A stretch of DNA of 64,000 nt from Bacteroidota bacterium (lineage in GTDB: Bacteria > Bacteroidota > JABWAT01): contig JABWAT010000008.1 in assembly GCA_013360915.1 (NCBI GenBank), forward strand, positions 1-64,000, read 5' to 3'. Made by a program: the position numbers and the translations under genes. This document shows, piece by piece, positions 557 through 63,416 of this stretch. Numbering within the stretch: position 1 is the first letter of the stretch; each line of letters starts with the position of its first letter. The notes under the pieces are model-generated. The model was not told the origin of the DNA, did not search any database, and was given only the letters and a program-made list of their open reading frames with translations.

Positions 557-1567
557 TCAGAACTGAAGACTGAGACCGTAGACTGTGATACCATCAAACA
601 GTTCCATCTGTGAGTGAGAAACATCGAACTTCAGGTTATACCCAAAGATCGGATAGGCGATTCCGACTCCGAATGCAAGTCCTTCCTGGGACTCACCACG
701 GAACAGATTCTTCATACCCACACGCAGAAAGACGTTGTCATTGAAACCATATTCGGTACCAATGTTGACGGACTCATTGTGGTTACTCGGGCGTTGAGCA
801 TCCGCCGCAATAATCAGGCTGTTCATGTCATCCCGGTACACATCCATGGCGAGTCCGACCCTGAAAAAGATCGGCAATGGCCAGTATTCGGTTTTCAGAG
901 CGGTGGAAATCTTTCCATTGTTTCCTGAGGATGATGGATCATCATCGTAAGATTTGAAAAGATCCTTGCCTTCATAGCGCATGTCCTGGCCGAAGTTTGA
1001 TACCGACATTCCGAGTTTCAGACCATTCCACTGGAAATTGTAGAGAAGTCCGAGATCCAGAGCAAAGGCACTGGCCGTTTCGTGCCAGATCTGGCTGCGA
1101 ATGTACTTGGCTGTACCACCCAGTGTGAACTGCTCGGTAAGTGCATGAGAGTAAGTCACCCCGACGAACAGATCAGAGGCATCCCACCGTTCACCGGTTC
1201 CATCCTCATCCAGTTCAGTCACCACTTCTTCCTCGCCATAGCTGAGACGGCCAAACTGCAGACCGATCACGCTGGCATCGGTTACCGCAATGGTGGCACC
1301 CAGCCAGTCATACTTTGAACCGACCAGCCAGTTTGTTTTTGTGAAATAAACCTCATTTCTGGGCTTGGAACCGGCAGCTCCCGGATTCCAGTACAGCGAT
1401 GAAGCACCGGTTTTGGAAGCCACAACGGCACTTCCCATCCCGATGGCATCCGGACCGATACCGATACCCAGGAAGGTGGCGGTGCTGGTCCCGACTTTTG
1501 ACTGGCCCATGGCCACCGAGGTGACCAGTATCAGGGCAAGTCCAATGAAAGAGAAACGTGTTTTCAT
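557..1567 (-). CDS. PorV/PorQ-family outer-membrane protein
   Basis: 336 residues with a signal peptide (cleavage near SVAMGQS). The mature start runs through FLGIGIGPDAIGMGSA and then WNPGAAG, the hallmark of the UPF0164/PorV-PorQ family of FadL-like outer-membrane barrels linked to type IX secretion. The C-terminus ends in aromatic Phe (LSLQF), as expected for a barrel. It is the last gene of the unit LacI > TonB receptor > 1314-aa secreted protein > this gene, 20 bp after its neighbour, and is followed by a strong terminator. By family knowledge such proteins either shuttle T9SS cargo or act as generic OM barrels. Its position next to a large exported protein suggests a dedicated role in handling that protein, which is inference. 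Confidence 0.8.
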   Translation of the reverse strand: MKTRFSFIGLALILVTSVAMGQSKVGTSTATFLGIGIGPDAIGMGSAVVASKTGASSLYWNPGAAGSKPRNEVYFTKTNWLVGSKYDWLGATIAVTDASVIGLQFGRLSYGEEEVVTELDEDGTGERWDASDLFVGVTYSHALTEQFTLGGTAKYIRSQIWHETASAFALDLGLLYNFQWNGLKLGMSVSNFGQDMRYEGKDLFKSYDDDPSSSGNNGKISTALKTEYWPLPIFFRVGLAMDVYRDDMNSLIIAADAQRPSNHNESVNIGTEYGFNDNVFLRVGMKNLFRGESQEGLAFGVGIAYPIFGYNLKFDVSHSQMELFDGITVYGLSLQF

Positions 1568-1587
1568 AGTTTAATCAACCTTCCTGG

Positions 1588-4500
1588 TTATTTAATGACC
1601 CCGATTTTGCCTTCTTTTTTGCCGTATTTAGATTCTACCACGTAGAAGTAAATACCGGCTGCCACATCCAGGTTCTCCTTCGTACGGAGATCCCAGTACA
1701 CCGACCCGTTGAAGATGGATCCGTCAGCATACAGTGTACGGACCAAATCACCGGCCGTGGTGAAAATGTAGATTTTGGCATCATTCGGAACATGACGAAA
1801 CTCGATCCGGCGTTCACCCCGACCGCTTGTTACGTTGGGCGGCAGCGGATTTTCAATGCTCGACATGGCCACATACGGATTCGGAACCACCTTGATCTTC
1901 ATCATTTCCTGTTTGACCACTGATTCGGCATCCAGTTTGGGCGCCTTGGTTGTAAACTCGAACACGTTTGCTGAATACAACGGTTTCGAGAAGGTGATCT
2001 TCAGTTTCATGGCAGAACTTGTGATGGTGGTGTTGTAAGAACCTGTCATCAGAAAGGATGCCACCAACAGGTGCAGAGAATCATTGAGGGTATAATAGTT
2101 GTTGGGCGAATTGTAACCACGTTTTTGTGGCAGCAAATCAAGCAGAACAACCTGATCCCCTCTCGAAAGGGCACCAGTTGTATTTCCTGAACGAGGGAGA
2201 TACAGGAATGGTGCATCCTGACCAGTGATGGTATTGACCACTTTGAATTTTGTAGGTCTCGATGGAACGTTGGTCGTTACCAGACGGCCTGCGGTGCTGT
2301 TACTGATATCCGTATCACTGAAGGAAATTTCGTAGGTATTCGGCAGGAATGTGTAATACACAAAATTGGCACCTGCTTTTACCACATCCTTCGAGAATGA
2401 CAATTTCAGCGAAGTGGTATCACCAAAGAATCCGGTTTCAGAACCAATGCGCACTGAATCTATCGGAACGTTTTTGATTGAGTCATACCTGCGCCAGTCA
2501 TTTTTAAACGCAAGTGTTACACCATCGAAGGTGACATCATCTGCATTAGACCGGAAGTTGGTTTCATCAAAGGCCGGATTATTGGCCATATAGGGGCTTT
2601 CGTAAACAGGGAAGGCTTTGTAAGTGAAATTATAAACCTTGTCGGCTACGAATGGGAAGTCTACCCCTTTTATGGCAATGATCCGACCTGTCCTTGGATC
2701 AGCCCGGAAGGTATTGCGTGGGAGTATTACACCTGAAGGATCCTTCACAACCAGAGTAGTGGTATCCAGTCGCTGACCGGTGCGAGAAAGGGCAATCAGT
2801 CCCGAACCGTCATACTGAATCGATTCAGATTCTTCCGTTTCTTTTCTTACAGTATAAGAAGTGGTAAGGGGAATCAATTCAGATGGATCATTGGAATCGA
2901 TTAAAGTATCGGCATCGTTAGACACTCCATCATTTGAAATGTCTTTAAAAGTGATTTGATAGGTTGCATTATCAATCAGCCGACTATCATCGACCACTTT
3001 AACCGTTACAGTTGAATTGGTGGGACGTCCAATATTGGTAACCGGAAAGGTTGATTCAGAATCAAAACCAGCGACCCGATGGTTTGGTACTGCAACAACA
3101 GTGTTGATATCCGTGATATATTCCCCGCTTGAGAGTTGGCGGATAAATTTGGTGTTTTCCGACGGATAAATCCCTGCAGTGTCAACACCGCGGTCATAGG
3201 CCACGACTGCATAGAAATAAGTTTCACCATTGACCACACTTTCATCCACGAAGGAGTGAGCTAAACCAACTTCATCATCCCCCAAATAGTAAGAATAACC
3301 AGATGCACTCTGGAAATCATCATTGGACGGAATAAAGTAGCCAGAAACACCATTTTTTGGGATATCAAACTGTGCGAGCGGCTGATAGCCAACTGCCTCG
3401 CCGCTTGCATCGGTTATAGTGCGGATATCTTCAAAGTTAGGATCTAGGGAACGGTAGACCCGATACCCTTCAAAATCCCTTATTCTCAATACCGGGTCAA
3501 TCGTAGCCTCGGATTCACGTCCCCAATGAAGGGTAACCTTTTTATCACCAACCACTGCTTTTACAAGGGGTCTCCGGGGAGCTGTAGGAAATTGGTAGTT
3601 GGCGTCATAGATGATCTGGACGACCTTCCTGTTTTTATAAAAATCTTTCAGATCGCTTCCATACAAAAGTGCAAAAGAGAACCGTTCGGTTTGTTTGGAT
3701 AGAAGCGGAAATACGCCAGACCCAAAGGTAAAGTCACCATCTTCACCCCGAATGGCTTTTCCGTTCACAAATATTTCTGGAACGGAGAAAAATCCGGGAC
3801 GCAGGCGATTCCACAAGGTTTCGTCATTCTTCAAGTCAATGTCGTTGGCAGGGGAAAAATATTCAAAGGAGGTCAGTCCAATCTGATCGGACTCACTCAC
3901 ATCCAACGCATCAAAATTGGGTTCTCCTGGTGTTGGAATTCCGTCATTCTGACCGTTATCAATATTTTCAGCATCACCATCAGCTCCAACATCATCCCAA
4001 AGAGAAGACCAATCCCGATCGTTGTCTATTCCGTCATCCCGACGTTCATCGATCAGCAGATCTGCGCCACCGGCACCGGTTTTATAATTGACATAGGCTG
4101 TTGGTACAATTTCATCGAACAGCACGTTGTCATTCTGATCCTTTTTAAACTGACGATAATGAACAAAATAGTTCTCATCAATGAGACCATCGAAATCGTT
4201 ATCCACCCCGTCAAAGGCATTTTCTGCAATCACTTCGGTCACATAGGTTCCAACACCACCCGGGCGAGGAACGGTCTTCTTAACCAGATGACCTTCTGAA
4301 AGGCGTGTGATACCGGGAACAATATTCACCGGGGTTTTCATACCAAGGGTGGTGAGAGAAAACGGGGTGGAAGGTACTGTGACCTGAGTCCGTTTAAATA
4401 CCGGGATTTTTTTATTGTAGGCAGCTACAAACACCGAGTCGCGGCTGATGGTGATCAGCACATCACCGCTTTGAATAATTTTGGTTGTGTCAAAATCGGA

Positions 4501-5532
4501 TGGAGTAAACTGCGGTGATGCTTTGCTGGCATCGCGGTCATTATCAATTCCGTCGAAGGGGTTGCCCGGTGATTCGAGAAAGGCGTAGCCAACATAGCCG
4601 ACTTTACGACCCACCCAATTCGGATTACGTCTGTTATCATTCGGGTAGTCCCAGGAATAAACCAGGTTGTTTTTTACATCGAAAAAAGAGGCATCGTCAT
4701 CATATTCACGAGGTGCATCATCGGTTCCGGTTACTCCCACATAGGTACCGCAGATCAGACCGAAAATGGCCTTTTCATAGTCCATGGTGGAAGTGTTGTT
4801 AATTTCGTATAACCAGAAGATGCAATCCTGAGCCAGGAATTGAGCCCATTGCAAACCACGAACCTTCACATCCAGTCCCATTCCCTTGCGGGCAGGTTCT
4901 GCAGAATTGGGAACGTGATTGAAGGGAGCCCGATTAAATTCATCATCAGAATGATCATCCATGACAAAATAAGATTCCTGATCAGCACCAGCAAAAGGCC
5001 CGAAATAGCCATTCCATTTGCGGTTGTAGGAAGCATCACGATCGGGCCAGGTTGCCGGCCAGGTGCTTGGATTGATGCTGGTTGCAATGGCTCCCTGATC
5101 ACGGTTAGCATAGCCAGGCTTGGGTTGGAAGGTCCAGGGCAATCCCTCAGGGCTTTGTTCCTGTGCCTTTGCAGGGCGTGCAACGTTTGAAATGACCACA
5201 GAGTGATAGATACTGTCCTTATTAGAGGCAATCAGACTGTTGATCAGCGGATCATTGGGTGTGACGTTCTTCATTCTGGCTTCGACACCAATCATGAGGG
5301 AGATATCACCAATGTATCCGTTGTTATCATAAATCCAGGCGCCCCGAGGTCCGCCGGAAGAAGGCTGACCAATGACACCGGCATTACTGAAAACGGTTTT
5401 CACCAGATTACCTGAGTGAACTCCGGTTTTCTGGTTGGTTGCATTTCCATATCCGCTTGTCTGAGCCATCCCGGTAAAGGGAATCACCAGACCTGCAACC
5501 AGGAAAAGTGAAAGTTGAATTAATTTCTTCAT
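1588..5532 (-). CDS. Large secreted protein with Asp-rich calcium-type repeats, Fn3-like and C-terminal sorting-like domain
   Basis: 1314 residues with a clear signal peptide (MKKLIQLSLFLVAGLVIPFTGMAQ). At least three copies of a D-G-[IV]-D-N-D-x-D motif occur (roughly residues 330, 440 and 500), resembling thrombospondin type 3 calcium loops, followed by another Asp/Asn-rich stretch to about 555. An Fn3-like segment (FEGYRVYRS) follows around 690-800. The last ~100 residues begin IKVVPNPY and contain IYIFTTAGDLVRTL and AAGIYFYVVES, a FlgD-Ig/T9SS-like C-terminal domain. It sits between the TonB receptor (18 bp upstream) and the PorV-like gene. SD GGAG lies 9 nt before the ATG. It is likely a surface protein partnering the receptor in place of a SusD lipoprotein; that role is inferred. 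Confidence 0.8.
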   Translation of the reverse strand: MKKLIQLSLFLVAGLVIPFTGMAQTSGYGNATNQKTGVHSGNLVKTVFSNAGVIGQPSSGGPRGAWIYDNNGYIGDISLMIGVEARMKNVTPNDPLINSLIASNKDSIYHSVVISNVARPAKAQEQSPEGLPWTFQPKPGYANRDQGAIATSINPSTWPATWPDRDASYNRKWNGYFGPFAGADQESYFVMDDHSDDEFNRAPFNHVPNSAEPARKGMGLDVKVRGLQWAQFLAQDCIFWLYEINNTSTMDYEKAIFGLICGTYVGVTGTDDAPREYDDDASFFDVKNNLVYSWDYPNDNRRNPNWVGRKVGYVGYAFLESPGNPFDGIDNDRDASKASPQFTPSDFDTTKIIQSGDVLITISRDSVFVAAYNKKIPVFKRTQVTVPSTPFSLTTLGMKTPVNIVPGITRLSEGHLVKKTVPRPGGVGTYVTEVIAENAFDGVDNDFDGLIDENYFVHYRQFKKDQNDNVLFDEIVPTAYVNYKTGAGGADLLIDERRDDGIDNDRDWSSLWDDVGADGDAENIDNGQNDGIPTPGEPNFDALDVSESDQIGLTSFEYFSPANDIDLKNDETLWNRLRPGFFSVPEIFVNGKAIRGEDGDFTFGSGVFPLLSKQTERFSFALLYGSDLKDFYKNRKVVQIIYDANYQFPTAPRRPLVKAVVGDKKVTLHWGRESEATIDPVLRIRDFEGYRVYRSLDPNFEDIRTITDASGEAVGYQPLAQFDIPKNGVSGYFIPSNDDFQSASGYSYYLGDDEVGLAHSFVDESVVNGETYFYAVVAYDRGVDTAGIYPSENTKFIRQLSSGEYITDINTVVAVPNHRVAGFDSESTFPVTNIGRPTNSTVTVKVVDDSRLIDNATYQITFKDISNDGVSNDADTLIDSNDPSELIPLTTSYTVRKETEESESIQYDGSGLIALSRTGQRLDTTTLVVKDPSGVILPRNTFRADPRTGRIIAIKGVDFPFVADKVYNFTYKAFPVYESPYMANNPAFDETNFRSNADDVTFDGVTLAFKNDWRRYDSIKNVPIDSVRIGSETGFFGDTTSLKLSFSKDVVKAGANFVYYTFLPNTYEISFSDTDISNSTAGRLVTTNVPSRPTKFKVVNTITGQDAPFLYLPRSGNTTGALSRGDQVVLLDLLPQKRGYNSPNNYYTLNDSLHLLVASFLMTGSYNTTITSSAMKLKITFSKPLYSANVFEFTTKAPKLDAESVVKQEMMKIKVVPNPYVAMSSIENPLPPNVTSGRGERRIEFRHVPNDAKIYIFTTAGDLVRTLYADGSIFNGSVYWDLRTKENLDVAAGIYFYVVESKYGKKEGKIGVIK

Positions 5533-5550
5533 GTAGAAACTCCGGAGATG

Positions 5551-8346
5551 TTAGAAATTATAAGTCACGCCAAATTCGATCAGGCGGGGTGCTGAGTAAT
5601 TCTGAGGATTGGTGAACCATTCATCCAATGTATTCACACCCTTCAGATCTGGATTCAACCGTTCTGCATTCAGCTGATCTACAGTAAAGCCTGAGCGACC
5701 GGAGTCATCAAAGACACCATATTCATTCAGGGTATCGAACAGGTTATAGACCCGTGCAAATATGGTCATGCTTCCGTACCCTTCAGGCATTCCCAAATTA
5801 TAATACCCACGTACATCCACGTTGACGTTGGAGGGCTTGATTTCACTGTTGGTCAGAATGGTTGCAGCATCCTGGCTGGTGCGCGGGGTATAGGGTTGAC
5901 CGCTGCCAAAAGTCATGATGGTGGAAACACCCCAGTCTTTCTGGCTGTAATTCACGGTAGCATTGACAGTATGGGTCTGGTCCCAATCAAGGGCAACCAG
6001 TTTCACTTCTGGCTCAAGACCACCGGCAATGGCATTCCGGGCGGCATCGGGGTTGGAAGCCGTTCCTTTGGCAATCTGGTAGGTATAATCAAGGGTCACT
6101 CCCAGTCCATCGGTCATCCGTTGGTTGAGGGTCAGGATGAAACCGCGGATGAAAGCGAAGTCAGAGTTGACCAGCTGAGAATACTGACGGGTACCGCCAA
6201 ACATGATGATTTCATCGGCACGGGTACCAGAAAGATCACGATAGTCGCGGAAATAGACCGTGGCATCGAGGGCCATGTCTGAAGTCAGTTGCTGGTTCAG
6301 ACCCACTTCCATCGACACGTTACGTTCCGGTTTCAGGTCGGAGTTTCCAGCCACACCCTGGTTTCCGCTGCCAAGTCCGAATTTGTAATTGGCATTGCGG
6401 TATAAAAGGTCAAAATTCGGGAACTGGTAGAAATGACCGTAGGAGAAATAAATCTTACCCTGATCGGTAATCGGGAAGGCGGCACCGATCCGTGGACTGA
6501 TCTGATATTTGGCTTCAGTATCCTTCCACCAGTATTTCTCACGGGCTTCCACTGATTTTTTATTTCCATCACTGAACTCGCTGTCGTCAATCTTTCCATC
6601 CGAATTCAGATCATTATAGATATTGATGGGTTTCAGCGGGTTGTAAATACTTGGATCGGTCGGATCATTCAGAACCTTTCCTGCTGCATCGAACCAGTCG
6701 AACCGGATTCCGATATTCAGGATAAAATTATCAAGCTCCACTTTGTCCTGAATGTAGGCCGAAAATTCCTGCGGGGAGCGCTCATACAAATCGGTATTGA
6801 ATGTGTTATTGCCATCATACCGGGTTTGAATGTAAGGGCTGTTCCCCACGGTAGGTGCAAAATTTTCCTGCGAAGAAACAGGCAGAACCGTCCGTGATAG
6901 GAAATCGATCATGTGGTACTTATACTCGAAACCAGCTTTGATCTGGTGCTCATTGTTCACCTGACTCCACAAATCAGATTTGAAGGAGAAGCTGCGGCTT
7001 TCACGCTGGAACTGGCCCATATCGACACCACCCACCGAGAAAGTGAAAGGGGCAACCTGATTATTCAGTGAAGGATGAACGTATTTTGAGCTGAGGCCAT
7101 CATACACATAATTTTCAAAAAACTTGTTGAATCCGCTCACAGACACTGTATAGAAAGTGCTGGCAGTGAGTGTATGGGTCAATGTGGAAATCATGGTATG
7201 AGAAGTCTGGTAATTGGTCCGGATGGCATCGGGATTATAAACATAGAAGCGGTTATAATCTTTCCATTGCCGATCCTCATACATGTAGTTAACCGAGGTT
7301 TTGATACTGGTTGAAACGGGCCAGGTCAGTTTCATTTGCCCGGAAATCCGGCTGGAGTTATTCATGGCAACATATTTGTTGTCACCAAGAGACTGAAAAC
7401 CTGCATCCCGTCCAAGGGAGTCCTGTGCCAAGAAATTGTCGGGATTGAATTTCCGTTTTCCATACAGATGGCCGCCGAAATTGACAAACCGTCCAACCGC
7501 AAAGAAATAGAGGTTGTTGTTGGTGTAAGGAACCGGGCCGCTGAACGTTCCCTCATAATTCTGAATATTGAAGGGATTGAAATAATCTTCTTTCGGGAAG
7601 ATGTCATCATTACCGGTGATGTAGTCACCATAATAAACCGTAGCCGATCCCTCATATTTATTAGTACCATCCTTGGTAGCCACGTTGATCACCGCAGACA
7701 TGGCCTGTCCGTACTCAGCGTTAAATGCACCAGAGATCACCTGAAGCTCACTGACGATGTTTTTGTTCACATCAACGACTGCGGATCCGTCAAATTTATC
7801 GGTTACGGGTACCCCATCAATCATATAGGCCACTTCACCGGTACGACCGCCGCGGAAGTGTCCGTTGACGTTACCAGCCTGAAGCGACACGACCTGAGCC
7901 AACTCGGTTACCGGAAGGGCCGAAATCTGATCTCCCGACACGATGGCGGTGGATGCAGTTAAGTCCTTCTGAACCAGCGGGCGTTCGGCAGTGATGAGAA
8001 TTTCCCCCTCCAGTGCCAGAACCTCGGCACTGAGCTGCACATCAATTCGGGCGGTGAGTCCGATGGAGACCCGCACGTTGCTGATGGTCTTGCTGGAGTA
8101 TCCCACGTAGGAAACCCGGAGGGTATAGACACCCGGGGGAACGTTAAGGATATTGTAATTCCCCTCAAAGTCGGTGGCAGCACCGAGGCTGGTTCCGACA
8201 ACGAGTACGCTGGCTCCGATGAGTTCCTCGCCGGATTGCTGGTCAGTAATCTTTCCAGCAATTTTTCCGGTCTGAGCAAACACCGGGGATGAAATGGCTG
8301 CTATTAAAGCAGCCAGGATGAATTGTCCCAATCGCTTGGTAATCAT
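5551..8346 (-). CDS. TonB-dependent receptor with carboxypeptidase-like N-terminal domain
   Basis: 931 residues. Signal peptide, then a CarboxypepD_reg-like beta-sandwich (KIAGKITDQQSGEELIGASV through PPGVYTLRVSYVGY, about 27-105). A TonB-box-like stretch (EGEILITAERP) follows, then a plug domain (about 130-235, with RGGRTGEVAYMIDGVP) and a 22-strand-type barrel ending in Phe (EFGVTYNF). The family actively imports ligands such as oligosaccharides, siderophores or cobalamin across the outer membrane using TonB energy. No SusD-like lipoprotein is adjacent. The LacI-family gene immediately upstream (30 bp) suggests a carbohydrate substrate. SD GGAG lies 11 nt before the ATG. Family call is firm; substrate is unknown. 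Confidence 0.93.
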   Translation of the reverse strand: MITKRLGQFILAALIAAISSPVFAQTGKIAGKITDQQSGEELIGASVLVVGTSLGAATDFEGNYNILNVPPGVYTLRVSYVGYSSKTISNVRVSIGLTARIDVQLSAEVLALEGEILITAERPLVQKDLTASTAIVSGDQISALPVTELAQVVSLQAGNVNGHFRGGRTGEVAYMIDGVPVTDKFDGSAVVDVNKNIVSELQVISGAFNAEYGQAMSAVINVATKDGTNKYEGSATVYYGDYITGNDDIFPKEDYFNPFNIQNYEGTFSGPVPYTNNNLYFFAVGRFVNFGGHLYGKRKFNPDNFLAQDSLGRDAGFQSLGDNKYVAMNNSSRISGQMKLTWPVSTSIKTSVNYMYEDRQWKDYNRFYVYNPDAIRTNYQTSHTMISTLTHTLTASTFYTVSVSGFNKFFENYVYDGLSSKYVHPSLNNQVAPFTFSVGGVDMGQFQRESRSFSFKSDLWSQVNNEHQIKAGFEYKYHMIDFLSRTVLPVSSQENFAPTVGNSPYIQTRYDGNNTFNTDLYERSPQEFSAYIQDKVELDNFILNIGIRFDWFDAAGKVLNDPTDPSIYNPLKPINIYNDLNSDGKIDDSEFSDGNKKSVEAREKYWWKDTEAKYQISPRIGAAFPITDQGKIYFSYGHFYQFPNFDLLYRNANYKFGLGSGNQGVAGNSDLKPERNVSMEVGLNQQLTSDMALDATVYFRDYRDLSGTRADEIIMFGGTRQYSQLVNSDFAFIRGFILTLNQRMTDGLGVTLDYTYQIAKGTASNPDAARNAIAGGLEPEVKLVALDWDQTHTVNATVNYSQKDWGVSTIMTFGSGQPYTPRTSQDAATILTNSEIKPSNVNVDVRGYYNLGMPEGYGSMTIFARVYNLFDTLNEYGVFDDSGRSGFTVDQLNAERLNPDLKGVNTLDEWFTNPQNYSAPRLIEFGVTYNF

Positions 8347-8376
8347 TGGACACTTACTCCACGGTTAATTAAACAG

Positions 8377-9408
8377 TTAGGCATGAACAGATTGTTTTTC
8401 CATTCCGCACGTTTCCCTGACCACCAGGGTTGGTGAGAAGGTTGTGTGGGAAGGTGGAAAGTCGTTATTCTGGATACGATGGAAAATTTTCTCGACGGCC
8501 AATACCCCCATCTGATACATGGGCTGACGCATGGTGGTGAGTCCGAGGTGTTTGGCCAGTTCAATGTCATCATATCCGATGATGGCGATGTCTTCCGGAG
8601 CAGACAGCTTCCGGTCACGAAGGGCATTCAGGGCTCCGATGGCCTGAATATCCGAAGAAATAAATACGGCATCCGGCAGATCCTCGCGGTTCCGGTCAAT
8701 CAGTTCCATCATGGACTGATAGCCCGCTTCGCGGTTGAATCCGTCATTTTTAAGATTCTTACTGACTTTAAAGTAGCGGTCATTGAAGGTCAGGCGGGCT
8801 TCATCTAGGGCCTTGCGGTATCCGTTGTACCGCATCCGGGCCGGTTCGGATTCCATCGAGGCATTCAGCATGCCGATTTTGCGATACCCGGCCTTGATCA
8901 GATGTTTGGTGGCCACATAGGCACCGTCTTCATTCTGAACGGTGATCGAATCGAATTCGGGATGGTAGGTATCCACCAAAACGGTCGGCATGTTCAGTTC
9001 GCGGAGTTTTTCCTCAAATCCCGGGGCCATTTTCATGGAGTGGTACAGAATCCCATCCACTTTCCCTTTTTGCATGGCCCGGCGCAGGTATTCATCTACC
9101 TGACTGATCTGATTAACACCATACAACATTATATCATATCCCAGCTCGGCCATTTTGTCCTGAACGCCCTGCAGCATTTCCACCTGGAAATAATTGGTGA
9201 AGAACGGCATGATGATGGCGATGGTGTTGGTGCGGCGTTTGGCCAGCCCCTGAGCATAGACGTGTGGCTGGTAATTGAGCTTGCGGGAGATTTCGAGGAT
9301 TCGGTTTTTGGTTTTAGCGGCGATTTTCGGATGGTTGTTCAGTGCACGTGATACCGTGCCAATCCCAACATTGGCTTCACGTGCGATGTCATAAATTGTC
9401 ACTCCCAT
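8377..9408 (-). CDS. LacI-family transcriptional regulator
   Basis: 343 residues from the ATG at 9406-9408. The N-terminal helix-turn-helix is textbook LacI (TIYDIAREANVGIGTVSRAL, then a hinge helix ending QGLAKRRTNTIA). A periplasmic-binding-protein-like sensor domain (about 60-335) follows, with a type-1 fold sequence such as IAIIMPFFTNYF and IGYDDIELA. A longer reading to a TTG at 9456 would add 16 residues ahead of the usual LacI start and would overlap the promoter, so the ATG preceded by GGGGTG is preferred. It is first in the unit with the TonB receptor. LacI regulators normally repress sugar-uptake genes until a sugar binds. GGAAGCGCTT-type sites elsewhere in the window are candidate operators. 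Confidence 0.95.
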   Translation of the reverse strand: MGVTIYDIAREANVGIGTVSRALNNHPKIAAKTKNRILEISRKLNYQPHVYAQGLAKRRTNTIAIIMPFFTNYFQVEMLQGVQDKMAELGYDIMLYGVNQISQVDEYLRRAMQKGKVDGILYHSMKMAPGFEEKLRELNMPTVLVDTYHPEFDSITVQNEDGAYVATKHLIKAGYRKIGMLNASMESEPARMRYNGYRKALDEARLTFNDRYFKVSKNLKNDGFNREAGYQSMMELIDRNREDLPDAVFISSDIQAIGALNALRDRKLSAPEDIAIIGYDDIELAKHLGLTTMRQPMYQMGVLAVEKIFHRIQNNDFPPSHTTFSPTLVVRETCGMEKQSVHA

Positions 9409-9777
9409 ACCGTCTACACCCCAAAAATGGAACTTTTCTTGGAAAGGCTTCCACAATATTGTGAAAATTTTTACGGAGTGTCAACCCGTTCCAGCTGAAA
9501 AAGGTCAGGAAAAAGTCAATTAAATCATCTTTTAATCCGGCCAAATTTGTGACATGAGAAGGTTTTGAGCCTGATTTGCACGCTTTTTGTCAATGAAAAT
9601 GACCATACCTGACCATTTATTAACATCAGGTATCCGGTCGTCACACTTGTCACTGGAACAAGACCATCAACCGCTTCCACTGTATTTATCAAACTGATAA
9701 TTCTTTATCACCTAAGATAATAAAGCGTAAAAACCGATTAACCTGCAAGAAGAAGGATGGCAACAAGTTTGTGTCGG
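9409..9777. other. Intergenic region upstream of the LacI gene
   Basis: No gene is visible in these 369 bases. They hold the LacI promoter (9441-9484) and an inverted repeat at 9601-9639: GACC-ATACCTGA and TCAGGTAT-CC-GGTC around a 13-nt AT-rich centre. The repeat has no T tract, so it is more like a protein-binding site or RNA hairpin than a terminator. It lies about 120 bp upstream of the -35 and also downstream of the mnmA unit. Confidence 0.5.
9441..9484 (-). promoter_or_regulatory. Promoter and putative operator of the LacI-family gene
   Basis: On the minus strand TTGACA (9479-9484) is followed after 17-18 bp by CAATAT or AATATT as the -10 element. The -10 is embedded in a perfect 12-bp palindrome CACAATATTGTG (9452-9463). 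Directly downstream lies GGAAGCCTTTCC (9441-9452), a two-mismatch relative of the GGAAGCGCTTCC-type palindromes at 58146 and 34475 and at a similar distance from the -10. The arrangement would suit autoregulation; this is inference. Confidence 0.5.
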
Positions 9778-34445: not shown

Positions 34446-34503
34446 TTGGCATCCAGATAAACATATCTTAATAAAAGCGCTTCCATTTGGCACGGCATTT
34501 GTA
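34446..34503 (+). promoter_or_regulatory. Regulatory region of the 3D-domain gene (two alternative promoters, palindrome)
   Basis: Two readings exist. (a) TTGGCA (34446-34451), 17 bp, TAATAA (34469-34474), directly followed by the palindrome AAGCGCTT (34475-34482), the same core as at 58148. (b) TTTGGCACGGCATTTGTA (34486-34503), matching sigma-54 TGGCAC-N5-TTGCA with one mismatch at the -12 C. In (b) the palindrome lies just upstream of the -24 element. Both readings place a start 30-60 nt before the ATG at 34545. Which is used cannot be decided from sequence. Confidence 0.4.
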
Positions 34504-34544: not shown

Positions 34545-35042
34545 ATGCCGAGAAAAACGATTCAGCGCTCGACCGTGGTTCTGCTGTTTGGCGCTCTGAT
34601 GGTATCTTCCTTCGGTTTTGGTCATTTCCAATCAACCAGTCAATATCGTGAACGGATCAGTGCCCTGCAGGATTCTCTGATTCTCACGCGTCAAAGTCTT
34701 GAAGCCAACCGGTTAAAATTGCGGGGCTCCATGGATACAGTGACGTTTACTTCTTACAATCCCGTCGAGGGACAGACCGATGACACGCCATTTACCACAG
34801 CCTCGGGCTCAACCGTGGATGGCTGGACATTGGCTCTTTCGCGTGATATGCTTCGTCCCCACAATTTCGAGGCTGAGTACAGTTACGGTGATACCGTCTA
34901 TGCCATTATTCCTTTGGTCGTCCGTGATACCATGAACAAGCGGTATGCCCGGTCAGCCGATATTCTTTCCTTCAGTTACGAGGTCAGCAAATGGCTGGGC
35001 CGTCGTGAGGGATACATTGTCAAAGCAAGTGAGATCAAGTGA
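34545..35042 (+). CDS. 3D-domain exported protein
   Basis: 165 residues. An N-terminal membrane or signal segment (STVVLLFGALMVSSFGFGHF) is followed by a coiled-coil-like stretch (RERISALQDSLILTRQSLEANR). A 3D-type domain (FTSYNPVEGQTDDTPFTTASG, ALSRDM, then VVRDTMNKRYARSADILSF) fills the rest; in MltA and Rpf-like proteins this double-psi barrel carries three Asp residues and acts on peptidoglycan. It is probably envelope-located and cell-wall-linked. It stands alone between divergent regulatory sites upstream and a strong terminator downstream. Confidence 0.78.
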   Translation: MPRKTIQRSTVVLLFGALMVSSFGFGHFQSTSQYRERISALQDSLILTRQSLEANRLKLRGSMDTVTFTSYNPVEGQTDDTPFTTASGSTVDGWTLALSRDMLRPHNFEAEYSYGDTVYAIIPLVVRDTMNKRYARSADILSFSYEVSKWLGRREGYIVKASEIK

Positions 35043-58116: not shown

Positions 58117-58157
58117 TTGACATTTAATTATTTATTGTGATAATTGGAAGCGCTTCA
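58117..58157 (+). promoter_or_regulatory. Promoter with LacI-type operator for the modular secreted proteins
   Basis: TTGACA (58117-58122), a 16-bp spacer and GATAAT (58139-58144) form a near-consensus sigma-70 promoter. Immediately downstream, centred near the expected start point, lies the palindrome GAAGCGCTTC (58147-58156) within TTGGAAGCGCTTCAA. A repressor bound there would block initiation. The core resembles sites of the LacI/GalR family. The LacI-family protein at 8377 is the only such regulator in the window. Confidence 0.72.
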
Positions 58158-58177
58158 ACAAATAAGGAGACCCAAAA

Positions 58178-60349
58178 ATGAAAAAATGGCTACTTTCGGT
58201 TCTTTCGCTGATTGTTTTTGCAGGAACCGCTTTCACTCAAACATACGATTTTTGGATGTGGAACGGGTGGGGTGCAGCCCCAACAGCCGTCAGTCCGAAA
58301 GGAATTCCCGGAGTTTCGTCTGCCACTGTTACTGCAACCACAACCGGATCTGCCGGTTTTCTCTACCGGAATACCGACTGGACACAAAAGTGGGGAGCAG
58401 CTCTTTCAATTAATACTGTAGCAGTTCTGAATCAATACAACGGTTCAGATGGATCTGCTGCCATTACGGCCGGAATGTATTATACTCTTAATGTACCAAC
58501 TTCACCTGTTGCTGATAATACCAGCAACAAAATAGGTATCCTTGAAACCACGGCTCAACCGGTTACCATCACCGCTGTTACACGGGATTTTCTTCAACCC
58601 ATTCCGGAAGAACCAGTCGAAGTAACAGTTACGCTGAGTGGTACACCCGGAACCGAAGAGAAATTCTACGTGGTCTACACAACCAATAACTGGTCTTCAG
58701 CCACGGCTGTAGCAGTTACCCTGTCGGGAACAACGGGAACGGCAACCCTTCCTCCACAACCCGAAGGAACCGATGTCTCCTATTATGCCATGTCATCAAC
58801 AGTGCTGTCCACTTCCTGGGGATCGGACCGGGACTATTATACCCTCCGTTTAAACAACAATAGCGGTACCAATTATAACTATACCTCCAGCAATGTTGGC
58901 GATACCACCCCCCCGACTACTATTACAGACCTGGCTGCCACAGCGGATGCCAATCTGAACAGAATCACACTGACATGGACTCCTGTCACCGAAGAAAATT
59001 TCGAAACGTATGAAATTTTTTACAGCACCTCTGGTATTCCAACCACCACGGACCCCATGCTGGATAAATCCGATTATCTTTCTCTGGGAACCATCAGCAC
59101 AAGTTCAATTACTCTGACCGGGTTAGACTGGAGTACTGATTATTTCTTTAAAATCCGTGGAGTGGATGCAGCCGGGAACAAGGGAACGCTTTCTGATGCA
59201 GATAAAGCAACCACGGTTGCAGAACCTTACATTCTGATGGATGGTACCTTTGATGGCCAATTAAAATGGGGACCTCCTGTTGCCTCCGCATCAAACACCA
59301 CAGATGGATGGGGTGGTGCAAATGCCACCGATCTGTATGTAAAATATCATGATGGATATATCTATCTGGGCGTAAACCTGGCCATTGAAGGATGGCAGCG
59401 TTGGGTGTTCATTATCAATACAACATCCGGCGGCGCACCTCAGGATAGCTGGGGATTGGGTGTGTATTATGATCACACAGATAAACCCGATTTCAGCATC
59501 CGCAAAGGAAATTCAGCTGCAACTGCACAGTTTAACGCATGGAATGGCACTGCCTGGACCTATGACGATGGCACCCTGCTTGAGGACATCTGGTACAAAC
59601 AGGGAGCCTCTTTTGTGGAAGTCCGTGTTTCTCAGGCCATGTTGGGCGGAGCAGAGAATGGAGATGTTCAGTTCTACATCACAGGAAACAATGCCGAACA
59701 TGGGGCCTTCGACTGCCTGCCGGATGATGACAACTCAACTGGCTGGTCGGCTCCTGAAGTGACTTCAAACCTCAGTTTTTATGCTTCCGGTGTGACTCTC
59801 CCGGTTGAACTGGCCTCCTTTACCGGATCCCGCCAGGGTGACCGTGTTCGCCTGAATTGGTCATCCCGTTCTGAAACAAACAATGCGGGCTTTGAGGTAG
59901 AGGAAAAACTGGCAGGTCAATCCTGGAAATCCGTTGGTTTTGTGGCCGGAAAAGGTACCACTCAATCTACTCAGGGTTACTTCTTCGAAGTGGTTTCGGC
60001 ACATAAGGCCAGCTATCGTCTGAAACAAATCGATCTGGATGGATCATTCAGTTACTCCACTGTGGTCGAGGTTTCAGGAGCACCCACCCATTTCCTGACG
60101 GCCCGGAATTATCCGAATCCGTTTAACCCGGTTTCCACCATTGAGATTTCCATACCGGTGGCTGGTACAGTCAGTCTGGAAGTATTCAACACCTTGGGAC
60201 AGCGGGTATATTCTCAACTGCTTCCCGACTTGCAAGCCGGCCTTCATACGGTACCGTTTAATGGAGCAGGATTGTCGTCTGGGTTGTATCAATACCGGAT
60301 CACTCAAAATGGACAAATCGTGACCGGAACCATGTCACTGATCAAATAA
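58178..60349 (+). CDS. Secreted modular protein with A-B modules, Fn3, CBM9-like domain and sorting domain
   Basis: 723 residues with a signal peptide (cleaved near TAFTQ). Domains in order: module A (about 22-130, WTQKWGAALSIN and MYYTLNVP), module B (about 131-235, YTTNNWSS, PPQPEGTDVSYY), Fn3 (about 240-345, TDLAATADANLNRITLTWTPV), a CBM9/DOMON-like beta-sandwich (about 349-535, LMDGTFDGQLKWGPP, DLYVKYHDGYIYLGVNL), an LPVELASFTG Fn3-like module, and a T9SS-type end (NYPNPFNP, LEVFNTLGQRVYS). Probably binds glycans at the cell surface. A and B recur in the next gene. Preceded by a promoter with a LacI-type palindrome. Confidence 0.85.
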   Translation: MKKWLLSVLSLIVFAGTAFTQTYDFWMWNGWGAAPTAVSPKGIPGVSSATVTATTTGSAGFLYRNTDWTQKWGAALSINTVAVLNQYNGSDGSAAITAGMYYTLNVPTSPVADNTSNKIGILETTAQPVTITAVTRDFLQPIPEEPVEVTVTLSGTPGTEEKFYVVYTTNNWSSATAVAVTLSGTTGTATLPPQPEGTDVSYYAMSSTVLSTSWGSDRDYYTLRLNNNSGTNYNYTSSNVGDTTPPTTITDLAATADANLNRITLTWTPVTEENFETYEIFYSTSGIPTTTDPMLDKSDYLSLGTISTSSITLTGLDWSTDYFFKIRGVDAAGNKGTLSDADKATTVAEPYILMDGTFDGQLKWGPPVASASNTTDGWGGANATDLYVKYHDGYIYLGVNLAIEGWQRWVFIINTTSGGAPQDSWGLGVYYDHTDKPDFSIRKGNSAATAQFNAWNGTAWTYDDGTLLEDIWYKQGASFVEVRVSQAMLGGAENGDVQFYITGNNAEHGAFDCLPDDDNSTGWSAPEVTSNLSFYASGVTLPVELASFTGSRQGDRVRLNWSSRSETNNAGFEVEEKLAGQSWKSVGFVAGKGTTQSTQGYFFEVVSAHKASYRLKQIDLDGSFSYSTVVEVSGAPTHFLTARNYPNPFNPVSTIEISIPVAGTVSLEVFNTLGQRVYSQLLPDLQAGLHTVPFNGAGLSSGLYQYRITQNGQIVTGTMSLIK

Positions 60350-60366
60350 TCTGTCTGACCTTTAAG

Positions 60367-60405
60367 AAAAGCCCATCAGGTCTTTTTCCTGATGGGCTTT
60401 TTTAT
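60367..60405 (+). terminator. Terminator after the first modular protein gene
   Basis: A 13-14-bp stem (AAAGCCCATCAGG with CCTGATGGGCTTT, 60368-60380 and 60388-60400) with a 7-nt T-rich loop is followed by TTTTATT. It lies 17 bp past the stop. No strong promoter is visible before the next ATG, so expression of the second gene may depend on read-through. Confidence 0.88.
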
Positions 60406-60444
60406 TATTATAAACTCACAGATCAATGAAGAACGGAGAAATCA

Positions 60445-63363
60445 ATGACTAACAAACGTTACACCCTCTTACTCTCACTCCTTTTTTTCTCCTTCCCTGC
60501 CTTTTCGCAGATTTATCAGCCGGAAGGATTGAATCTCCCCGGCGCCTGGAATAGCTGGACCAATCCCCCTTCTAATGCACCAGCATTGGGAAGCGCCACT
60601 CAGGTTACCGGTGGCGAAGTCACAAGAATCACGTCGGGAAGAGGAACCGGCAGATATACGACCACCTTTAGTGCAGCCGCTTCCGGTGCCGATGTGGTGG
60701 GAGGAACGTATGAATTCCTGTTTACATCCGGACCAGGCGGAAGTCCATACAACAACAAGTGGTCGGGTGTGACGGTAGCGTTGAATACGGTTCAAACCTA
60801 TTTGAAAGAAAATCCGGCTAATAATTCCATTACAGTCAGCAACGGAAAGTGGTATACGCTTAACTGGCTCGATTCAGGATACGGAAATACCTCAGCCATT
60901 TTTATTGAAACCAGTTCGGAACCCGTTTCCATTTCGTCTTTAACGAGAAATCCTGAAAATCCGACACCAGAAGACGATGTCGACATCACGGTGACCCTTT
61001 CCGGGGCTCCTGCTACCGGGGAATATGTGTACATTCGATACACAACCGACAATTGGACAACCGGAACAACCGAACTGGTTTCCCTTTCAGGTTCCAGCGG
61101 ATCCATCACCGTTCCGGCTCAATTAAACGGAACCACCATACAATACTATGCACTTACCACCCCTTTTCTTTCAGAGTCATGGGGTTCAAACAATGTTGAT
61201 CTGCTTTCCTTACGGACCAGCAGTCTTGCAACCTACCAGTCCACATCCGCCCCGGATGTCACCCCTCCAACGGTTGTTTCAGACCTGAGTGCCACATCGG
61301 TTGCCAAATCAAAAACCATTTCCCTGTCCTGGTCGCCGGTAACTGAAGCCAACTTTGATTCATACGAGATTTATTATAATTCCACCGGAAATCCCGGACT
61401 TACCGATTCGAAACTGGATAAGACTTCACATGCCGCTTTGGGAACAATCAGCACTTCTGAGCTTCAGATCACACTGGCAGATTGGAACACCACTTATCAT
61501 TTTGCCATCCGGGCAAAGGATCAGGCTGGAAATGTGGCAGACCTTTCCAATTCTGCACAGGCAACCACCTCTGTTCTGGGACATGATCTGTGGCTGTTCA
61601 ATGGTCTCATTCCGGAAGGGGGAGCCTCTGTGTCTCCGAAGGGCCTTGCTGGACTTGCTGAGGCCACGGTCAGTGCCAATGCCACCGGAACAGCCGGCTT
61701 TCTGTATCGGCAATTTGACTGGAACAGGAAATGGGGCGGATCGGTTGCAATCAATTCGGCCGGCACTCTGAGTGAGTTTAATGGTGCGGATGGTTCGGTT
61801 GCTGTAACAAACGGCAAATTTTATACTTTTAACGTTCCATTGAATCCGGCAGATGGTAATGGAAATCCTGTTGCCATTCTCGAAACCAGCAACGTTCCGG
61901 TTACAATCACCGAAGTCAATCAAACAACGTTGACCCCCGAACCAGACGAAGCGGTCAACATTATCATAACACTGTCATCTTCACCTTCTCCCGAAGAATT
62001 GGTTTACATTCGGTATACCACCGATGGATGGGCAAACTCCATGGCCAGTTTAGCCAGCATCTCCGGAACCACTGCCATTGGAACCATCCCGATGCAACCA
62101 GAAGGAACGGTCGTAAATTACTATGTCCTGACGACCACCGTCGGAATGGAATCCTGGGGAGGGGCGGTGGATCTTCTGACACTGAAAGCAAACACAAATA
62201 ATGGGCTTAATTATACCTATTCTGTCGGAGTCATCAGCAATCCGACCTCTGGCGAGGTTCCCAACGTCGAATTCACTACCGGAACCACATTAACAGGCAA
62301 TCTGACCGTTAGCGGAATTATTACCGTGAATGCTCCTGTAAACACCAGCGGCAATATCCTCAGCCTCGCTCCAACAGGATTGATACTTGGCGAAACACCA
62401 TCCACTTACATTCAGGGTATTGTTCAGACGATCCGGAATCTGAGCGGATCAGAAGAAAGCAATCTGGCCGGGTTGGGAGTTTCGATTGATCCATTGGGTC
62501 AGGTACTTGGTAATACACAGATCACCCGGAAATCGGGTCCGGGTTACAGTGCCGGAGTCGGAATCAATCAAATCTGGACCATAACACCAACCAATCAGCC
62601 AACCTCAGATGTGAGTGTCACGCTGACCTGGCCTGGCAGCAATGATAATGGTAAAAACCTGGCAACGCTGGTTCTGTTTAAAAGCAGCGATGGTGGTGCC
62701 ACCTGGACAGCCATTGATGCCAGCTTTATAACAAACACCAATCCGAGATCGGTCACCTTTGCGGTTACCGGATTTTCAGATTTTACCATCAGCAATGGTG
62801 AAACGCCACTTCCTGTGGAATTGGATGGTTTCAATGCGCAGGTTGCAGGCAGGTCTGTGGTGATTTCCTGGTCAACCCGGACCGAAACCAACAATTTTGG
62901 TTTTGAAGTCGAAAGGTCAACAGACCGGATGAATTGGGAAATGGTACACTTTGTTCCTGGTCATGGCACAACCACCGACCCTCAACGTTACTCGGTAACG
63001 GTCAATATGAAACAGGAAAAAGTCTGGTTCAGACTGAAACAAATCGATATGGATGGATCCTGGACATACTCACCGCTTGTGGAAGTAATCGAAAACCCAT
63101 CTGAGATCTTAACCGCCCGGGCTTACCCGAATCCGTTTAACCCGACCACCAATCTGGAAATCAACCTGCCCAATGATGGAGAGGTTATCATTTCCATTTT
63201 TAATACGTTGGGACAATTGATCCGGGAAATCAACCTGGACAATCAACGGGCAGGACTTTTAGTAGTTCCGTTTAAAGCCGATCAGTTGGCCTCGGGGCTA
63301 TACCACTATCGGGTGGTATCCCGGCGGCAATCGGTGACCGGAACGTTGCTTCTGGTTCGCTGA
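60445..63363 (+). CDS. Secreted modular paralogue with two A-B units and sorting domain
   Basis: 972 residues with a signal peptide (LLLSLLFFSFPAFSQ). A first A-type module (about 22-155, LPGAWNSWTNPP, NNKWSGVTVALN) and B module (about 156-265, YIRYTTDNWTTG) precede an Fn3 unit (about 270-370). A second A (about 374-480, WNRKWGGSVAINSAGT) and B (about 485-590, YIRYTTDGWANS) follow. A beta region of ~190 residues, an LPVELDGFNAQ module and a T9SS-type end (AYPNPFNP, ISIFNTLGQLIRE) complete it. It is a paralogue of the upstream protein with one A-B unit duplicated. No enzyme domain is seen; it may bind or display polysaccharide. Confidence 0.85.
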   Translation: MTNKRYTLLLSLLFFSFPAFSQIYQPEGLNLPGAWNSWTNPPSNAPALGSATQVTGGEVTRITSGRGTGRYTTTFSAAASGADVVGGTYEFLFTSGPGGSPYNNKWSGVTVALNTVQTYLKENPANNSITVSNGKWYTLNWLDSGYGNTSAIFIETSSEPVSISSLTRNPENPTPEDDVDITVTLSGAPATGEYVYIRYTTDNWTTGTTELVSLSGSSGSITVPAQLNGTTIQYYALTTPFLSESWGSNNVDLLSLRTSSLATYQSTSAPDVTPPTVVSDLSATSVAKSKTISLSWSPVTEANFDSYEIYYNSTGNPGLTDSKLDKTSHAALGTISTSELQITLADWNTTYHFAIRAKDQAGNVADLSNSAQATTSVLGHDLWLFNGLIPEGGASVSPKGLAGLAEATVSANATGTAGFLYRQFDWNRKWGGSVAINSAGTLSEFNGADGSVAVTNGKFYTFNVPLNPADGNGNPVAILETSNVPVTITEVNQTTLTPEPDEAVNIIITLSSSPSPEELVYIRYTTDGWANSMASLASISGTTAIGTIPMQPEGTVVNYYVLTTTVGMESWGGAVDLLTLKANTNNGLNYTYSVGVISNPTSGEVPNVEFTTGTTLTGNLTVSGIITVNAPVNTSGNILSLAPTGLILGETPSTYIQGIVQTIRNLSGSEESNLAGLGVSIDPLGQVLGNTQITRKSGPGYSAGVGINQIWTITPTNQPTSDVSVTLTWPGSNDNGKNLATLVLFKSSDGGATWTAIDASFITNTNPRSVTFAVTGFSDFTISNGETPLPVELDGFNAQVAGRSVVISWSTRTETNNFGFEVERSTDRMNWEMVHFVPGHGTTTDPQRYSVTVNMKQEKVWFRLKQIDMDGSWTYSPLVEVIENPSEILTARAYPNPFNPTTNLEINLPNDGEVIISIFNTLGQLIREINLDNQRAGLLVVPFKADQLASGLYHYRVVSRRQSVTGTLLLVR

Positions 63364-63380
63364 GAGAATTGAAACCAGTA

Positions 63381-63416
63381 AAGGGGCTGTTCCATCCGGA
63401 CAGCCCCTTTTTTTTT
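63381..63416 (+). terminator. Terminator after the second modular protein gene
   Basis: A 10-bp perfect stem AAGGGGCTGT/ACAGCCCCTT (63381-63390 with 63400-63409), with a 9-nt loop, is followed by seven T residues up to 63416. It is adjacent to the stop of the convergent gene at 63415 and is weaker for that strand. Confidence 0.88.

Follow-up and report, generated by a model that had tools for sequence, protein, structure and literature searches.

The window analysed here, a stretch of 64,000 nucleotides from a Bacteroidota bacterium (contig JABWAT010000008.1), carries two open reading frames in tandem on the forward strand near its distal end, P1 (58178-60349, 723 aa) and P2 (60445-63363, 972 aa). 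Both products are predicted to be secreted. P1 is composed of a signal peptide, an A module (58241-58576), a B module (58577-58930), an Fn3 domain (58922-59188), a Trp-rich domain of ~190 residues (59213-59812) and a T9SS C-terminal sorting domain (60110-60325). P2 is composed of a signal peptide, a long-form A module (A1, 60508-60939), a CBM53-like B module (B1, 60940-61272), an Fn3-like domain (61282-61539), a short-form A module placed by alignment to the other units (A2, 61579-61914), a second CBM53-like B module (B2, 61915-62262), a linker and a T9SS sorting domain (63124-63342). The tandem locus beside a ribBA-like gene is kept in three sister genomes. The Fn3 domains that a first-pass annotation had joined to the units are well founded in P1 (PF00041, E 7.5e-9, residues 249-337, above cut-off), whereas in P2 the match is weak (fn3_4, PF16794, E 0.015, below cut-off). 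Pfam and TIGR profile searches found no catalytic domain in P1 or P2. The Trp-rich domain of P1 (residues 346-545) is conserved in six homologues from the three sister genomes. No Pfam family matches it at E values up to 10, and no CBM9 match appeared up to the same E value in P1 and the four homologues scanned alongside; the previous label of this domain as CBM9-like thus lacks Pfam support and was set aside.

Comparison of the two proteins confirmed the proposed A-B repeat, with one unit in P1 and two in P2. Residues 22-247 of P1 and residues 28-276 and 379-604 of P2 are matched by a single profile made from the units, and BLASTP of P1 against P2 aligns the units with E values of 5e-59 and 8e-53, far beyond chance. 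The three units of the window share 36-46% identity with the P1 copy. Two of the landmark motifs described for them had been slightly misread: P1 contains VVYTTNNW rather than YYTTN, and the first unit of P2 contains PAQLNGT rather than PQPEGT. The family is larger than first noted, as a third paralogue, P3, lies directly beyond the window end on the opposite strand (L009:3760-6738 on contig C8; 992 aa, two A-B units, ~55% identity to P2). All five units of P1, P2 and P3 align over their full length, and the other four are 36-52% identical to the P1 copy. The gene after P3 (L009:7294-10830) has its C-terminal 400 residues in common with P3 at 83% identity. A 2066-aa secreted protein elsewhere in the genome (L010:2241-8441, minus strand, contig C24) shows a distant A-B match, and frames of similar length with such a match are present in all three sister genomes.

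Conserved aromatic residues were counted over 46 modules, in P2 numbering. Alignment A4 omits units that score below 90 bits or contain X, and alignments A5 and A6 also omit L050 and L071; the 46 modules are therefore the better-scoring matches and not the full set. W106 and Y199 are present in 46/46 modules, W38 in 45/46, and W204 in 42/46 with Phe in the other four. With respect to the ligand-stacking Trp pair of X25 modules, W38 and W106 are near-invariant at the level of sequence alignment, as distinct from a residue-level structural alignment.

The C termini of both proteins match the T9SS type A sorting domain (TIGR04183) with 34.5 bits for P1 and 29.7 bits for P2 against a cut-off of 23, which bears out the T9SS-type ends noted earlier. 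Searches for the export machinery covered SprA in the genome and PorV in the window; SprA was found with 1354.8 bits (cut-off 200), and PorV is above its cut-off. On reading of the sequences, neither P1 nor P2 had a lipoprotein Cys around the region where cleavage is predicted.

By sequence, the P2 copy of module A falls outside Pfam. P2 A1 alone matched no Pfam family at E ≤ 0.1, and the X25 profile (PF22058, X25_BaPul_like) matched just one of the 46 A modules (E 0.0012), which is not P2 A1. A PDB sequence search with the A profile returned only collagenases at E 0.28 and worse, taken as chance. A model of the two-domain A-B unit has high confidence (pLDDT 94.2, pTM 0.89), and a structure search with the whole model gave mostly Ig/Fn3 pairs, with CBM56 folds among the matches. 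A was therefore folded by itself with AlphaFold from an alignment of 46 rows, giving a model of P2 A1 with a pLDDT of 94.4. The top Foldseek match of this model is X25-2 of Ruminococcus bromii Sca5 (probability 1.00, TM 0.57, E 0.038) and the second is the Klebsiella maltohexaose amylase, with Foldseek E values above 0.03. Structural alignment with VIA-align gave the same order: Sca5 X25-2 (7rpy) has a Z score of 11.2 over 112 aligned residues at 3.4 Å and 11% identity, followed by the Klebsiella amylase (9us6, 9us4 and 9us3; Z 9.5-9.4, 92-93 residues), the starch-binding domain of AmyP, a CBM69 module (5x5s, Z 6.8), and a pullulanase (2wan, Z 6.6). All top six rows are starch-active proteins; the next is GRP78 (Z 3.8), and none else is listed above 4. 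Sequence identities in these six rows are 8-21%, so that it is the fold that relates A to these entries. The structural matches listed for A do not include SusE or SusF, which does not speak against kinship. The models thus predict that A has the same β-sandwich fold as the starch-binding X25/CBM69 modules. For P1 the assignment is by homology, with the fold taken from the P2 copy. In the available part of PMC9112005, Sca5 X25-2 is described as crystallised with maltotriose, and in that of PMC10223318 a CBM69 assignment is proposed for the N-domain of Escherichia coli MalS, which is related to the Klebsiella enzyme.

Module B is related to a family of starch synthase III binding modules, CBM53 (as described in an excerpt of PMC6243121). 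Whole P2 scores 32.5 bits against the CBM53 profile (PF16760; E 1e-7, cut-off 27.6), with both B modules contributing jointly, whereas the single modules fall below the gathering score (B1, 18.8 bits and E 0.0021 alone; B2, 19.6 bits at C8:61975-62118). The P1 B module does not reach this score, and the Pfam search of whole P1 lists no CBM53 match up to E 1; P1 B is related to P2 B by alignment and is CBM53-like by this homology. Among the 46 isolated B modules, 30 match CBM53 at E ≤ 0.1, 15 CBM21 and 7 CBM56. The best CBM53 matches of the genome, the two domains over the cut-off, share frames with GH13 catalytic domains (contigs C39 and C9). The fold of B alone is uninformative because it resembles Ig/Fn3 domains generally, which make up most of its structural matches. 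A PDB sequence search with the B profile yielded antibody chains for the most part (best 1nfd, E 0.004), taken as chance or generic Ig similarity. The P2 score, the 30 matching B modules and the CBM53-GH13 frames in the same genome together indicate that B is, as judged from its sequence, related to the CBM53 starch modules, though divergent. It differs from them in its divergence, in partial profile coverage with single copies below cut-off, and in being linked to A instead of standing in tandem CBM53 arrays.

A scan of GTDB representative contigs found at least 63 loci with A-B relatives. By the record titles of the metagenome contigs, these are mostly Bacteroidota, and other titles name Chlorobi, Ignavibacteriae, Spirochaetes, Verrucomicrobiia, Kiritimatiellae, Lentisphaerae and Chloroflexota; the units are thus not specific to this lineage, as had been suggested, but spread over several phyla by these titles. 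The unit profile matches an ORF in 59 of the 63 loci listed (E ≤ 1e-3), and the first match starts near the protein start, by residue 71, in 55 of these 59. The longest array seen is a 2197-aa protein with five consecutive A-B matches (L084:6483-13073, plus strand). Of the 63 relatives listed, 19 have a GH13 α-amylase catalytic domain within the protein itself (Pfam, 11/29 and 8/34), 20 have AMPK1_CBM (13/29 and 7/34) and one has GH31; these tallies exclude P1 and P2, which were scanned alongside. Both tallies have GH13 as their commonest catalytic family. A GH13 profile from this genome gave the same count within the proteins (19/63) and 34/63 for the protein or the fetched flanks, against a chance expectation of ~6% for such stretches, estimated from the GH13 density of this genome and not from a matched control. 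In the remaining 29 relatives GH13 is absent from both the protein and the fetched flanking DNA, and no GH13 gene was found within the 64 kb window. The matches are thus neither restricted to generic Ig/Fn3 folds nor to proteins without a polysaccharide link, either of which would have spoken against the first-pass annotation.

The start of P1 is preceded by a predicted promoter (58117-58144; TTGACA and GATAAT separated by 16 bp, with TG before the second hexamer) that agrees with the consensus at 11 of 12 positions. It is the best of eight promoter-like sites in the region; because this number equals the chance expectation (8 vs. 7.3), support for the promoter comes from its position and its footprint in the sister genomes. 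A candidate LacI-type operator, TGGAAGCGCTTCAA (58145-58158; core GGAAGCGCTTC, 58146-58156), abuts the -10 element ~19 bp before the P1 start codon. No other site in the genome (3.65 Mb) has fewer than two mismatches to TGGAAGCGCTTCCA, and a like site is found at the same position before the P1 homologue in all three related genomes. The P1 site shows the features by which LacI regulons are recognised, an even palindrome with a central CG that is conserved before orthologues, and sites of such form and position are usual for LacI in the portion of PMC4052901 consulted. P1 is followed by an intrinsic terminator (60365-60403; 16-pair stem and T tract, -25.9 kcal/mol, z -7.6) and P2 by a terminator-like hairpin (63380-63410, hairpin prediction). 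No operator-like site was found in the 110 bases upstream of P2, and the strong terminator separates it from P1. An operator ahead of both genes, as first proposed, therefore applies to P1 and not to P2.

The genome has one LacI-family gene (PF00356, E 5.5e-16), which lies inside the window on the minus strand (8377-9408) and encodes 343 aa from the ATG at 9408, including a sugar-binding domain. An operator-like site, TGGAAAGGCTTCCA, which has no central CG, is located 31 bp ahead of it (9440-9453), and the same 14-mer recurs 32-33 bp before the lacI homologue in 3/3 related genomes. Allowing at most two mismatches to TGGAAGCGCTTCCA gives 20 sites in the genome vs. 6 for the reversed pattern, and 24, 23 and 13 vs. 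7, 10 and 8 in the sister genomes. Those located within 100 bp upstream of a gene precede P1, lacI, an amylase with CBM26 (contig C27), an amylase with CBM48 (contig C2), a fructose-1,6-bisphosphatase (FBPase), a 165-aa ORF and two small outer-membrane-like proteins; the remaining sites fall in coding sequence or before unrelated genes. For the positions at lacI and the two amylases, without P1, the chance expectation is 0.007, which is indicative only, as it relies on 13 GH13 frames counted by hand and a target set picked after seeing the matches. In the sister genomes, where gene context was read for part of the 60 sites, sites stand before lacI, GH13 genes, glycogen phosphorylase and, in two genomes, a gene judged GH3-like by sequence reading only; otherwise they lie inside genes or have no gene found behind them. 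The link to LacI is supported for P1 and not for P2. P1 and P2 might bind starch while the P1 site serves a general sugar response or is unused, but we regard this as unlikely. The FBPase site, ~95 bp upstream of the gene (L131, C1:411315-411328), would fit a wider carbon regulator and hints at a further role of LacI in directing central carbon flow; in addition, several of the 20 sites fall within coding sequence or precede unrelated genes. However, four genomes keep the P1 site, with its sequence and its position immediately after the promoter, and there is a single LacI gene with sites before amylases, phosphorylase and lacI itself.

Taken together, we hold with considerable confidence that the A-B unit is a tandem α-glucan binder, that P1 and P2 are surface starch holders and that P1 is repressed by the sole LacI. 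The A-B pair itself very probably binds starch-like sugars (starch or glycogen), a reading that derives from the CBM53 matches of B, the fold of A, the amylase fusions and flanks, and the sites before amylase genes; all of these, like the conservation of the operator, are results of computation. The original suggestion of a carbohydrate-binding module pair is thereby supported, with α-glucan as the predicted ligand. Its novelty is partial: B would be a divergent CBM53-type module, and A, although outside Pfam by sequence in the P2 copy, would have the known X25/CBM69 fold. In the proposed mechanism, P1 and P2 would be non-catalytic proteins exported via the Sec pathway and the type IX system, whose A (X25/CBM69-like β-sandwich) and B (CBM53-type) modules, presumably acting jointly, would keep starch, glycogen or maltodextrin on the cell surface for cleavage by the secreted GH13 amylases. 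P1 would be transcribed from its own promoter, at which the only LacI repressor of the genome would be bound; a maltodextrin-type sugar would release LacI and derepress P1 and the amylase genes. The same LacI is predicted to control its own gene in addition to the amylase genes. P2, with no operator, may be constitutive or under other control.

A different polysaccharide as ligand, e.g. β-glucan, with the amylase link as a by-product of modular shuffling, appears improbable. CBM56 is a β-1,3-glucan-binding family, and its resemblance to seven B modules, its folds among the matches of the two-domain model and the GH3-like gene with a site in two sister genomes would agree with such a ligand. 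However, the starch families CBM53 and CBM21 match more B modules than CBM56 does, the best folds for A are all from starch-active proteins, and GH13 is the commonest catalytic family. A reading in which the units, as generic Ig/Fn3-type domains, serve as structural spacers or for adhesion and bind no sugar, which the Ig/Fn3 matches of B and the lack of a catalytic domain would allow, is very hard to reconcile with the strongly conserved aromatic positions in the aligned modules, the CBM53 match, the amylase fusions and the operator common to amylase genes. The α-glucan reading has its own points against it, namely the A-X25 link that no sequence profile reports for the P2 copy, the missing CBM53 match of P1, the generic fold of B, the 29 of 63 relatives and the window that have no GH13, the missing operator of P2, and the sites before non-starch genes (FBPase and the two outer-membrane-like proteins). 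A more far-reaching version of the α-glucan reading is tentative: A-B may form a rigid composite clamp in which a groove between the X25-like and the CBM53-like domain reads helical α-glucan, A may found a new widespread sequence family of starch-binding modules, and the proteins may be the non-lipoprotein counterpart of SusE/F in T9SS bacteria, within a starch regulon under LacI. A fixed A-B orientation is allowed by the pTM of 0.89 of the two-domain model.

SusE and SusF of Bacteroides are lipoproteins of the sus operon. Like P1 and P2, they are multi-module, non-catalytic surface starch binders (from the available part of PMC9112005), but in P1 and P2 the signal peptide is not followed by a Cys and the C terminus is a T9SS tail. 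The same partial source describes R. bromii Sas20 domain 2 and Sca5 X25-2, the latter being the best structural match to A, as tandem β-sandwich units of ~240 aa in non-catalytic surface starch binders; these combine two X25 modules and are attached by dockerin or sortase-type means, whereas an X25-like and a CBM53-like module are combined here and the attachment would be by a T9SS tail. The CBM69 module of AmyP and the N-domain of GH13_19 amylases share the fold of A (Z 6.8, and 9.5 for the Klebsiella enzyme), but are attached to amylases as far as the excerpt of PMC10223318 describes them, and no sequence-level match to A was found here. The kinds of function and fold are known; what is new is the variant in which T9SS proteins pair a sequence-orphan X25-like module with one that is CBM53-like. 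In the titles and abstract openings returned by the literature search, which cover the subscription literature little, the A-B unit is undescribed. Module A, which lies beyond Pfam and is found in many Bacteroidota and their neighbours, in surface proteins as well as in amylases, gains a likely function from this analysis. The results further suggest that surface proteins for starch capture are built by T9SS bacteria without lipoproteins of the SusE/F type, and they put forward for testing a starch regulon governed by one LacI repressor, in a lineage that has been sampled only sparsely.

The predicted regulon resembles the MalR-type LacI regulons of Firmicutes in its even palindrome with a central CG, in autoregulation and in the control of α-glucan genes (as far as the consulted part of PMC4052901 goes), but it includes a T9SS surface protein, and the likeness is drawn at the level of the regulon and not of orthology to MalR. 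Towards the other end of the window, the minus strand at 557-9456 contains lacI followed by genes for a TonB-dependent receptor (CarboxypepD_reg), a 1314-aa protein and a PorV-like protein, possibly an uptake operon of the same regulator; the 1314-aa protein looks secreted and matches nothing in Pfam at E ≤ 0.001. The two small outer-membrane-like proteins, which resemble each other and are ~217 aa long (L144:2253-2906 and 3891-4538, minus strand) each have an operator-like site ~80 bp upstream. The 165-aa ORF (34545-35042, plus strand), which has no Pfam match at E ≤ 0.001, is preceded at ~60 bp by TAAAAGCGCTTCCA (34472-34485; palindrome 34475-34482), and the same 14-mer occurs ~140 bp before the glycogen phosphorylase gene in two sister genomes. 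A further palindrome is present in the window at 84-91.
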